From positions 1-38,543 of the forward strand of contig CASFDQ010000004.1 of the NCBI GenBank assembly GCA_949293385.1: a stretch of DNA of 38,543 nt. Direction: 5' to 3'. This document shows positions 5,487 through 8,461 of this stretch, piece after piece; the stretch's first letter is position 1; each line of letters starts with the position of its first letter. This DNA is from an uncultured bacterium (GTDB taxonomy: Bacteria > Bacillota > Clostridia > Oscillospirales > Acutalibacteraceae). The notes below the pieces were generated by a model that was given only the letters and a program-made list of their open reading frames with translations, did not search any database and was not told the DNA's origin. A program made the translations under genes and the position numbers.

Positions 5487-6491
5487 ATGACCGTTTCTAT
5501 CGCCGTTGTTGCCTATAATGAAGGCACGTTTTTACCGCTTCTGTTATCCGATATTGCTTTGCAGGATTATCCGCATAATAAGATCGAGCTACTTCTTATC
5601 GACAGTATTTCTTCCGATAATACTCCTGAAATTATGTGCAAGTTTAAGGAAGAGTGCGACTTTCTTTCTTGCAAGCTCCTCGTAAACAAAAAGCGCATTA
5701 TTCCTGCGGGGCACAACCTTGCTATAGATAACTTTATCGGCGATGCGCTTATTCGTATTGACGCTCACGCCCGAATTCCCGTTGATTTCATTTCGAAAAA
5801 CGTCAAAGTGTTAAATAGCGGGGAAATGGCGGTTGGCGGAAGACGTCCCTGCATAGTAAGGAGAAGCGATCGTATTGGCAAGCTTCTTCTTTCTGCCGAA
5901 AACTCAGTTTTCGGTAGTGGCTTTGCTCCTTATAGGACAAGCCGCGAGAAGCTTTATACGAATTCGCTTTTTTGCGGAATGTACAGACGCGAGGTTTTTG
6001 AAAAGGCAGGAAGGTTTAACGAGCTTCTACCGAGAAGTGAAGATAACGAAATGTGCTATCGTATAAGAAGATCGGGATATCGTCTTTGCTATAGTCCTGA
6101 GATCGTATTCTTTCAGTATATGAGAGCCGATCTTTTCTCTATGCTGAGGCAGAAACTGCTGAACGGTTTTGCGGTAGGGAAAACCTTAGCCGTCGAGCCA
6201 AAGTGCTTTTCTTTGTTTCACTTTGCGCCTTTATTCCTTATTTTGTCTCTTTTTGTCGCGGTTCTTCTTTGTCTTAAAGGTGACTTTTTTCCTTTGCTAT
6301 TTCTATGCTCGCTGTACGGAACCCTACTGTGCGCCGCGACTGTGGCGGCTGTATTTAAAGAGCCTGTCTTATGTAATTTATATCTCCCGCTTGTACTATT
6401 TCTTGTTCATTGGTTTTACGGGATCGGTACGATTCTGGGTCTGATCGTAATGCCGTTTTGGCTATTTTTTATTAAAAGGAACGTTATATGA
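5487..6491 (+). CDS. Family 2 glycosyltransferase, membrane-anchored (ExoA-like)
   Basis: A 334-residue protein with an N-terminal GT-A domain. It has the nucleotide-sugar binding start AVVAYNEG, the LLLIDSISSDNT strand, a DxH metal-binding motif in RIDAHARIP, and the SEDNEMCYRIRRSGYR segment that fits the catalytic ED and acceptor helix of GT2 enzymes. Residues from about 245 to 330 form several hydrophobic helices, so it is membrane-bound. The layout resembles ExoA-type enzymes acting on lipid-linked sugars. The partner GtrA gene overlaps by four bases (ATGA). The likely role is building or decorating a cell-surface polysaccharide; the donor and acceptor are unknown. Confidence 0.85.
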   Translation: MTVSIAVVAYNEGTFLPLLLSDIALQDYPHNKIELLLIDSISSDNTPEIMCKFKEECDFLSCKLLVNKKRIIPAGHNLAIDNFIGDALIRIDAHARIPVDFISKNVKVLNSGEMAVGGRRPCIVRRSDRIGKLLLSAENSVFGSGFAPYRTSREKLYTNSLFCGMYRREVFEKAGRFNELLPRSEDNEMCYRIRRSGYRLCYSPEIVFFQYMRADLFSMLRQKLLNGFAVGKTLAVEPKCFSLFHFAPLFLILSLFVAVLLCLKGDFFPLLFLCSLYGTLLCAATVAAVFKEPVLCNLYLPLVLFLVHWFYGIGTILGLIVMPFWLFFIKRNVI

Positions 6492-6919
6492 TTGATTTAC
6501 TAAAAAGGCACCGCGAAGGTCTTCTTTATGTCCTGTTCGGTTGCGGAACGACGTTTTCTAACTGGTTTACCTACTGTATATGCGTTGAAGTTTTTCACCT
6601 TGATATCACCGTCAGTAATGCACTTGCTTGCTTAGTCGGCGTTATATTCGCTTTCGTCACAAACAAGCTCTACGTTTTTCAGAGCAGGGGAAAAAGCGCA
6701 AAAACGGTTTTAAGAGAGGCGATCTCTTTCGGTGCGTCCCGTGCCGCTACCGGCATTATAGATATATTCGGTCCCGCTATGTTTATGGATCTCGGTATTA
6801 CGGGGACGCTTTTCGGAATTGAAGGATTTGTTGCTAAGCTGATCTCAAGCTCTGTGGTAATAATTTTAAACTATACCTGCAGTAAGCTTTTGGTTTTCAG
6901 AAATACTAGTGAAAATTAA
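6488..6919 (+). CDS. GtrA-like small polytopic membrane protein
   Basis: A 143-residue protein with four predicted transmembrane helices and the GtrA-family N-terminus (LLYVLFGCGTTFSNWFTY) and middle loop (FAFVTNKLYVF). GtrA-type proteins are thought to help translocate polyprenyl-phosphate-linked sugars. Coupling by ATGA overlap to a GT2 enzyme supports a joint role in surface glycosylation. Its TAA stop (6917-6919) lies on the edge of the left inverted repeat of the structured element that follows. Confidence 0.87.
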   Translation: MIDLLKRHREGLLYVLFGCGTTFSNWFTYCICVEVFHLDITVSNALACLVGVIFAFVTNKLYVFQSRGKSAKTVLREAISFGASRAATGIIDIFGPAMFMDLGITGTLFGIEGFVAKLISSSVVIILNYTCSKLLVFRNTSEN

Positions 6920-6931
6920 AGGATGTGCTGA

Positions 6932-7130
6932 TGAGGCACACTCCGTAAGGAAGTGTGCCTCAGTTATATTCGCCTTGCGGCGAGTTATATTGCTTCGCAG
7001 TTATATTTGGGCTTCGCCCAAGTTATATTCGCTTCGCGAGTTTTAGGGCGAATATAATATAACTCTTTTGGAAATATCTCGCCGACGGCGAGGTATTCCA
7101 AAGGAATATAACTGTGAGACCTGTCTCACA
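6932..7130 (+). ncRNA. Chain of hairpins spaced by AGTTATATT (candidate structured RNA)
   Basis: Successive stems are: TGAGGCACACT/AGTGTGCCTCA with inner CC-GTAA-GG (6932-6962); CGCC/GGCG (6971-6982); TGC/GCA (6991-6999); TTGGGC/GCCCAA (7007-7021); TCGC/GCGA (7029-7039); a 19-bp stem with one bulge and GAC loop (7065-7104); and TGTGAGAC/GTCTCACA (7113-7130). AGTTATATT occurs at 6962, 6983, 6999 and 7021, and its complement AATATAACT at 7056 and 7105. TATATTCGCC (6965-6974) can also pair perfectly with GGCGAATATA (7047-7056), which would replace local hairpins. Whether it is transcribed is unknown. Confidence 0.45.
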
Positions 7131-7152
7131 ATATCACTTATTATACTTATAT

Positions 7153-7182
7153 TTGAGACGGGTTAATTTTAAAACATATATT
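7153..7182 (+). promoter_or_regulatory. Possible promoter inside the structured element
   Basis: TTGAGA (7153-7158) and TATATT (7177-7182) are separated by 18 bases. Initiation near 7189 would give a transcript of about 60 bases ending at the T-run of the 7221-7250 hairpin. The region is AT-rich, so a chance match is possible. Confidence 0.3.
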
Positions 7183-7220
7183 TTCGTTAAGCACCTTTTG
7201 AAAGTGCGTAACCCACTATG

Positions 7221-7250
7221 ACACTTTCAGCAAATGAAAGTGTTTTTTTT
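7221..7250 (+). terminator. Intrinsic terminator within the element
   Basis: ACACTTTCA (7221-7229) pairs with TGAAAGTGT (7235-7243) around GCAAA, followed by T8. An earlier GAAAGTG at 7200-7206 can compete for CACTTTC, forming an alternative antiterminator-like pairing. Confidence 0.75.
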
Positions 7251-7300
7251 ATTTATAAAAAGCGATGGAAGACAACTTCTTTACGAAGTGTCTTCCATCG
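7250..7300 (-). terminator. Terminator of the SGNH esterase gene
   Basis: CGATGGAAGAC (7263-7273) pairs with GTCTTCCATCG (7290-7300). After a bulged A, ACTTC pairs with GAAGT around TTTAC. On the minus strand the stem is followed by CTTTTTATAAAT. It lies 13 bases past the esterase stop codon and inside the inverted-repeat element. Confidence 0.7.
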
Positions 7301-7312
7301 GCACATCCTTTT

Positions 7313-8461
7313 TTACTTAAATATAGACAGATCGACCGCTTGGGCCATTCTTCGATATCCCTCAACGCTTGCGTGGAGATTATCCCCTCTGTTGCAGGCG
7401 GGGTCAAAGGCCGCGGGATCCGATTTGTCTCTTACCGCTTTATCAAAATCGATGAATCCGTCAGAAACATTCTGAGTTCTTATCCAGTCGTTGAATTCGT
7501 TTCGGATGCTGTTTCTGTTTTCGTCGTAGGTCCTCCAGTTTTTAAAAGGAAGAAGGGTTGCGAGATAGGTTCGCATACCGAGCTTTTTAGCTTCGGTTAT
7601 GTATTCGGTAACACCCTCGGCCAAGGACTCCGACGAAGGCATATTACTCATCGGCCGCATCGGATTTTTGCCGTCGGGATGAATTATGTCGTTAATACCG
7701 TGCAGAATAATGACGGCGTCAACTCCGTCGTGATCAACCTCGCGAACAAACCGCGTCATTCCGCCTTCACCGTAGTGAAAGTAGGATAGAGCAGGGTAGC
7801 AGCCTTTTATTCGGCTTCCGCTGACGGCCCTTCGAACGACGGCACGCTTTCCGTTACCGACTTCTATAAGTTTTTCTGCGAGAATATCGACCCATTCCTG
7901 CGAGGTGATAGAGTCACCGAAGGCGGCTACGGAGTAGCTGTCCTCGTATGTCAGGAAATCAACGCTCCAAAGAAAGTTATATGCGACGGAAAAAGACATC
8001 TTGTAAAAATCAAGATCGGCCGAATGAGTGTGGTTGCCTTCTATAAACCGACGCACCATATAGGTGTTTTCGTAGGTGAACCCTGTGTTCATCTGTGTGA
8101 ATTTGTCGAAATATATGCTGACGGACAGCTTCTGACCCGATCTTATATCGAAGTCTACGGGATCGCTTACGAGCTCACCGTGCGGCTCGATAATTCCGCT
8201 GAGGCTTCCGCTGAAGGTAACGTTTTTAACAGTGTCGGAAAGTATTTTGCATTTTCCGTCGTCGGATATCGCCACGGTCACCTCACTCAGCTCTACAGGC
8301 TCGTCGCCGAATCTGTTTGAAAACTTTAGACGAACGGCTCCGGCATCGAGCGAGTTTATAAGTACGTAGCGGACGGTCGTATTTTTTGTCCATTGGGCTT
8401 CGCTTAGCGGCGGATGCGTGACTCCGAGTCCCCATCCGTTTACCCATTTGGTAAAGCTCAT
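7313..8461 (-). CDS. SGNH/GDSL-type esterase with N-terminal beta domain
   Basis: A 382-residue serine hydrolase. Residues 1 to about 165 look like a beta-rich accessory domain. The SGNH domain starts at AAFGDSITSQ (Ser184), continues through the block II glycine in VSGSR (about 215) and the HGINDI block (Asn257), and ends with DNLH, giving Asp360 and His363. No signal peptide is seen, so it is probably cytoplasmic. Relatives deacetylate plant or microbial glycans, so it may act on imported oligosaccharides, although it is not in the sugar operon. The ATG is preceded by AAGGAG at good spacing. Substrate is unknown. Confidence 0.88.
   Translation of the reverse strand: MSFTKWVNGWGLGVTHPPLSEAQWTKNTTVRYVLINSLDAGAVRLKFSNRFGDEPVELSEVTVAISDDGKCKILSDTVKNVTFSGSLSGIIEPHGELVSDPVDFDIRSGQKLSVSIYFDKFTQMNTGFTYENTYMVRRFIEGNHTHSADLDFYKMSFSVAYNFLWSVDFLTYEDSYSVAAFGDSITSQEWVDILAEKLIEVGNGKRAVVRRAVSGSRIKGCYPALSYFHYGEGGMTRFVREVDHDGVDAVIILHGINDIIHPDGKNPMRPMSNMPSSESLAEGVTEYITEAKKLGMRTYLATLLPFKNWRTYDENRNSIRNEFNDWIRTQNVSDGFIDFDKAVRDKSDPAAFDPACNRGDNLHASVEGYRRMAQAVDLSIFK

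Follow-up and report, generated by a model that had tools for sequence, protein, structure and literature searches.

The window analysed here, 38,543 nt of a contig from an uncultured bacterium of the Acutalibacteraceae, contains a short insertion between two convergent genes that is very likely a non-autonomous mini-element of the Tn4451-type integrative mobilizable element (IME) family, moved in trans by a large serine recombinase (LSR) that would use a rho-independent terminator as its attB site. The insertion spans 6933–7298 on the plus strand (366 bp including one copy of a 2-bp core). To its left lies a gtrA-like gene (6488–6919, plus strand), whose TAA stop codon at 6917–6919 merges into the A-tract of the terminator, and to its right a convergent esterase-like gene (7313–8461, minus strand), both recognized as ORFs. 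The first-pass annotation had singled out the interval 6918–7311 as a hairpin-rich element closed by inverted repeats that match at 15 of 16 positions, and much of that description held. The repeat AAAGGATGTGCTGATG / CATCGGCACATCCTTT is present, with arms at 6918–6954 and 7275–7311 that are 81% complementary over 37 nt; the edges of the interval coincide with the stop codons of the two genes; no convincing gene was seen among the ORFs of the interval; and several hairpins lie within it, its fold being far more stable than those of shuffled sequences (z = -13.1, 0/100). Taking the end stem as part of one element was a misreading, as the outer arms, 6918–6930 and 7299–7314, are the two halves of a split host terminator.

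Copies of the element are dispersed, a point that the annotation had proposed checking. Blastn with the interval returned 26 matches in the genome from which the window comes; many are partial, and several lie at the ends of contigs, where a repeat is expected to be found. Of 40 relatives, 20 have matches, including every same-genus genome searched as well as other genera. One near-complete copy in the same genome (C98:1493–1887, 92% identity by blastn) has different flanks, and the flanks of the near-identical copy L002 are unrelated to those in the window. The exact end patterns of the element had no match in IMG/VR. When the copies were compared together with their flanks, they shared a common core whose borders are hairpins in inverted orientation, GAGGCACACTCCGTAAGGAAGTGTGCCTC at the left border and a GGGAGAACACTTCTTTACGAAGTGTCTCCC-like one at the right. 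Outside this shared core the sequence differs in each copy, yet the two flanks are complementary to each other, the left one with an A-tract and the right one with a T-tract at its end, and the copies are usually placed just past a stop codon. Two copies in a sister genome (L010 and L029 in G003) have nearly identical left flanks and different right flanks, which suggests that copies recombined with each other or that the site was duplicated.

The boundaries of the window element were set by comparison with 48 other insertions, 49 in all. The outermost nucleotides of the interval, about 14 on each side, are host DNA and form the arms of the interrupted terminator stem. From left to right, the host terminator 5' arm AAAGGATGTGCTG (6918–6930), which is outside the element and represents the left half of the attB target, is followed by the left copy of the crossover core, AT (6931–6932), the left-end hairpin GAGGCACACTCCGTAAGGAAGTGTGCCTC (6933–6961), a hairpin array (6962–7138), a MOBV-type oriT on the minus strand (7186–7244), the right-end hairpin TGGAAGACAACTTCTTTACGAAGTGTCTTCCA (7266–7296), which is inverted relative to the left one, and the right copy of the core, AT (7297–7298). 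The host terminator 3' arm with its T-tract, CGGCACATCCTTTTTT (7299–7314), is the right half of the target. Cargo-bearing and LSR-encoding elements have the same type of hairpin at their left end, and both end hairpins of the window copy are presumed to be recombinase-binding half sites.

To characterize the insertion sites, flank statistics were computed for 49 non-redundant, independent insertions from many gut and rumen Clostridia genomes. Alignment of matched flank pairs gave a mean of 10.84, compared to 6.96 for re-paired flanks, and none of 20,000 permutations was as high. At an offset of exactly 6 nt outside the conserved loops of the two end hairpins, the same 2 bp occurs at both junctions in 42 of 49 copies, with 12.4 expected, and the window copy with its AT/AT is one of them; the other offsets tested gave 0–6 matching dinucleotides. 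These cores are of seven different kinds (TT 21, TC 8, TA 6, AA 3, AT 2, GT 1, AC 1), therefore the core is not a fixed end sequence of the element. The rule is broken at this fixed offset in 7 of the 49 copies, several of which appear shifted by 1 nt. Judged from the junction sequences, the matching 2-bp core is the footprint of a serine-recombinase crossover.

Removal of the insert restored the layout of a rho-independent terminator past a stop codon, with a T-tract behind a GC stem, and the dyad centre of the rebuilt sites lies a median of 0.5 nt from the core. A run of at least four A on the left combined with a run of at least four T on the right was found at 43 of 49 sites but at only 2.5% of random sites from the same loci. 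Sites that have both runs and also fold at -10 kcal/mol or below account for 34 of the 49, versus 0.27% of random sites. Rejoined as AAAGGATGTGCTG-AT-CGGCACATCCTTTTTT, the window site has a folding energy of -20.2 kcal/mol and its core inside the loop, and another terminator rebuilt after removal of its element reads AAAAAGCAGGTCTGCA-TT-TGCAGACCTGCTTTTTT. Because removing the element rebuilds good terminators, the 15/16 inverted repeat is explained as the stem of a host terminator that the insertion has divided.

Element-free orthologues were available for one locus. The joined flanks of the insertion at G003:C70 align uninterrupted to two other genomes, G001 (81%) and G008 (71%), where a terminator free of any insert occupies this point (TAAAAGAGGAGGCTTAAGCCTCCTCTTTTTTT and TAAAAGAGGATGCGTTATGCATCCTCTTTTTT, respectively). 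Since these orthologues carry an intact terminator, the terminator predates the insertion at this locus. The search for empty sites that the first-pass annotation had suggested therefore succeeded at one locus other than that of the window; the window locus itself had no empty site in the genomes searched, and a second batch of joined-flank loci gave no orthologue spanning the junction. Two further interpretations of the outer arms were discarded. An inverted target duplication made by the insertion is ruled out by terminators that pre-exist in the orthologues, and a covarying end stem belonging to the element is ruled out by the empty sites together with near-identical copies that have unrelated arms.

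The annotation had also considered that the whole of 6918–7311 might be one large structured RNA with its terminal stem as a terminator cap. The fold is indeed very stable, an internal helix of the array covaries (column 5–102) and a Gut-1-like module lies inside, but the terminal stem is unrelated between copies, and orthologues without the element already possess the supposed cap as a terminator. In addition, cargo elements with the same ends carry no array. We consider a single RNA of this extent very unlikely.

The preferred reading, a mini-element that depends on an LSR encoded elsewhere, draws on an autonomous relative. In the sister genome, an 8.2-kb element with the same ends (L286, G003:C108) sits in the terminator AAAAAAAGCACCC...GGGTGCTTTTTTT. 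Its LSR adjoins the left end and contains Resolvase, Recombinase, Zn_ribbon_recom (zinc-ribbon) and DUF4368 domains, and its other content comprises a MobV relaxase, an oriT, TnpV and cargo that includes VanZ-like and FtsW/RodA-like genes. Homologues of this LSR (61–100% identity) likewise have such an end hairpin directly past the 3' end of the LSR gene, followed in most cases by the GC arm and T-tract. The window element thus has ends in common with elements that encode a DUF4368 LSR, and its 2-bp core is duplicated at both junctions, two features of Tn4451-type IMEs. The window copy has kept both ends and the MOBV-type oriT and no genes; a recombinase and a relaxase of its own, as Tn4451-type IMEs have, are missing from 6933–7298. 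As it encodes no gene, we class it only as a non-autonomous derivative of this family. We infer that an LSR of the L286 type would act on the window copy, with the end hairpins as putative binding sites. A close LSR is absent from the window's own genome (149 contigs, 96%-complete assembly), so that any recent movement there would be hypothetical. The sole LSR match in this genome is 40% identical, contains a stop and shows no such end hairpin downstream. A MobV search of the genome gave no matches, and control genomes likewise gave none.

Larger elements with the same ends carry cargo, for which the names come from reading the sequence and not from domain searches: a lipoprotein-like gene (L034), regulator-like and membrane-protein genes (L081), and a regulator with an ImmA/IrrE-like peptidase (L139). 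On an IMG/VR contig (L174), an AlwI-like restriction gene and a Dam-like methylase gene, named in the same way, come after the left end and a MOBV-type oriT and represent defence cargo; the right end was not found on this contig. No recombinase was seen within the complete cargo elements examined. Farther away in sequence, a 52%-identical LSR on enterobacterial plasmids has no obvious terminator target, and the more distant DUF4368 recombinases may have other targets. In one case, the Klebsiella pneumoniae IncHI2 plasmid NZ_MG288680.1 (L367), the 52%-identical DUF4368 recombinase is accompanied by TnpV, TnpW, aac(6')-aph(2'') and a plasmid recombination (MobV-like) gene. Other plasmids of enterobacteria share this recombinase match, and the element is of a Clostridia type, here far from its usual hosts.

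The suggestion of a MITE-like insertion in the first-pass annotation was right in kind, as the element is short, non-coding, multi-copy and has inverted ends, all of which would also fit an ordinary DDE-transposase MITE. However, the element does not have the DDE ends or the constant-length target duplication that staggered cuts leave. Its duplication is just 2 bp, varying between copies and matching within each copy, the targeting of terminators is strict, the same-ended relative encodes a serine recombinase, and no same-ended element with a DDE transposase was seen. A DDE-transposase MITE is therefore extremely improbable, and the MITE-like model is better recast as a serine-recombinase mobilizable element reduced to a short derivative; the terminal stem on which the annotation relied is the host target. 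Single-strand hairpin recombination by an IS200/IS605 Y1 transposase or an integron-like tyrosine recombinase, with loops as targets, would fit the bulged bases of the end hairpins and the insertion into loops, both of which resemble folded-ssDNA chemistry. We give this mechanism hardly any credence, since the ends are inverted rather than same-orientation repeats, the 2-bp core duplication matches an LSR crossover, and no Y1 or tyrosine enzyme was seen within the complete elements examined.

The mini-element, in the LSR-dependent reading, would also be transferable. Its oriT reads ...GAAAGTGTC-ATAGTGGG/TTAC on the minus strand, with an inverted repeat at 7186–7194/7204–7212, the nic core TAGTGGG/TTA and a predicted nick between 7212 and 7211. 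An IR1-like hairpin (7220–7244, minus strand) ends 8 nt upstream of the predicted nick. Published MOBV nic sites are TAGTGTG/TTA and TAGTGCG/TTA, and in pMV158 a hairpin lies 8 nt upstream (PMC5863519, PMC5090054); the window copy has both the nic core TAGTGNG/TTA and IR1 at this distance. The inner motif GTGCGTAACCCACTATGACACTTTCA is widespread among gut and rumen Clostridia. Of 122 non-mini sites, 64 have a MobV gene beside the motif, its orientation being constant and its start mostly no more than about 70 nt away; the count for mini/right-end sites is 0 of 72. In nic sequence, IR1 spacing and the mobV neighbour in relatives, the oriT agrees with the MOBV oriTs of pMV158 and IMESag-rpsI (PMC5863519, PMC5090054), whereas in the mini-element it stands without a relaxase gene. 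We predict that the window oriT is functional and could be nicked by a MobV in trans. The oriT-only islands known as MGIs and MTnSag1 (PMC5704250) likewise would depend on a relaxase encoded elsewhere, but they have their own integrase or transposase and measure about 2–33 kb, while the mini-element is 0.37 kb and encodes nothing.

The hairpin array consists of small hairpins split by AGTTATATT in its left half and by the reverse complement, AATATAACT/AATATCACT, in its right half. The same plan with other linkers was seen in L183 (AGTGAAGTT/AACTTCACT) and L184 (AGCTAAATT/AATTTAGCT). The first half of the window array (6961–7033) matches the Rfam model of Gut-1 RNA (RF01706) with 41 bits and an E value of 1.2e-6, but it differs from Gut-1 in scoring below the gathering score of 50 and in lying inside a mobile element; at the gathering score, Rfam has zero matches in the window. 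The stand-alone arrays at L014, L016, L021, L033 and L236 and the array of L183 score 51–57 bits, above the gathering score. Weak Rfam matches to DUF3800-I (E 0.15), SSRC34_2 (E 0.015) and others were taken as chance. In an alignment of 40 arrays, the first linker and hairpin arm pair with the array's middle to form a long-range helix, and hairpin 3 covaries strongly. Column 5–102 exchanges A-U and U-A; in 11 of the 40 sequences both partners are changed, and the pair is broken once. The compensatory base changes that the annotation had proposed looking for are thus present, within the internal module. The module 6962–7138 carries a structure that is conserved, covaries and is akin to Gut-1 RNA.

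Arrays that lack the end hairpins also exist; several of them lie right after a hairpin or terminator T-tract, and several are closely followed by a four-helix-bundle gene. Stand-alone Gut-1-like arrays at L008:1450–1680, L013, L021, L022, L219 and L240 lie a few tens of bases upstream of such a gene, which resembles the 23S rRNA intervening-sequence protein PF05635; G000 has PF05635 at C58 beside the L008 array, and array and gene possibly form an element of their own. At L014, L016, L021, L022 and L236 a terminator or other hairpin comes directly before the stand-alone array, which starts past its 3' arm or T-tract; some of these arrays adjoin tRNA genes. It looks as though stand-alone arrays landed at hairpins, the count being confounded by arrays read on both strands. 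At L183:1010–1600, the left end and the array occur in two head-to-tail copies with a single right end, which may reflect duplication of the array within the element. Our guess is that the array in the mini-element could be either a separately spreading module or an aid to second-strand synthesis after ssDNA transfer.

We propose that an autonomous relative supplies the LSR in trans. With the element in circular form, its two inverted end hairpins would serve as attP, which the LSR would pair with a rho-independent terminator of the chromosome as attB. The terminator would be read as a dsDNA palindrome, with its A-tract and T-tract on the outside and the 2-bp core at the dyad centre. Crossover at the core would leave the element within the terminator loop with a core copy on either side, and here the target terminator would have lain between the gtrA and esterase genes. 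Nicking of the oriT by a MobV relaxase in trans would then make transfer between cells possible.

The autonomous relative has the gene kit of Tn4451/Tn4453 (TnpX LSR, MobV, TnpV) and, like them, a 2-bp crossover core, and the window copy differs from Tn4451 in being gene-less. TnpX of Tn4451 uses a 2-bp crossover and has low target specificity (PMC3158075, PMC5704250). Tn4451 has been described only as low-specificity (PMC5704250), whereas the elements here target rho-independent terminators and have a core that differs from one element to the next. DUF4368 LSRs constitute a 'multi-targeting' clade, in which the site motif of Cp36 is A-rich / AA core / T-rich (PMC10083194). Cp36-type LSRs thus share with the present one the domain, the many targets and an A-rich / 2-bp core / T-rich motif, but that paper does not state that a terminator is the natural attB, and the word 'terminator' is absent from its main text (PMC10083194). 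A search of the open-access literature found no description of terminators as serine-recombinase targets. IME_Rho_tet was considered as a precedent and rejected, as 'Rho' stands for Roseburia hominis and terminators are unmentioned in the main text.

On balance, we favour the broader view that terminators are the natural attB of a DUF4368 'multi-targeting' clade and that this clade sustains cassettes of 0.3–3.3 kb (gene-less minis bearing Gut-1-like arrays, restriction-modification genes and other cargo) equipped with no more than att ends and a MOBV oriT, which would be moved between cells wholly in trans with terminator loops as harmless landing sites. Because a terminator is an A-rich / core / T-rich palindrome, a terminator attB would explain both the Cp36 motif and the low specificity of TnpX. 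This offers a testable reason why DUF4368 LSRs strike many A-rich/T-rich sites, which is relevant to their use in genome engineering. The copies described here bring to light a class of gene-less, oriT-bearing elements of very small size that had so far gone unremarked, and they locate Gut-1 RNA, a candidate noncoding RNA, inside mobile DNA. Insertion into terminators suggests how such recombinases may reach many sites while sparing genes.
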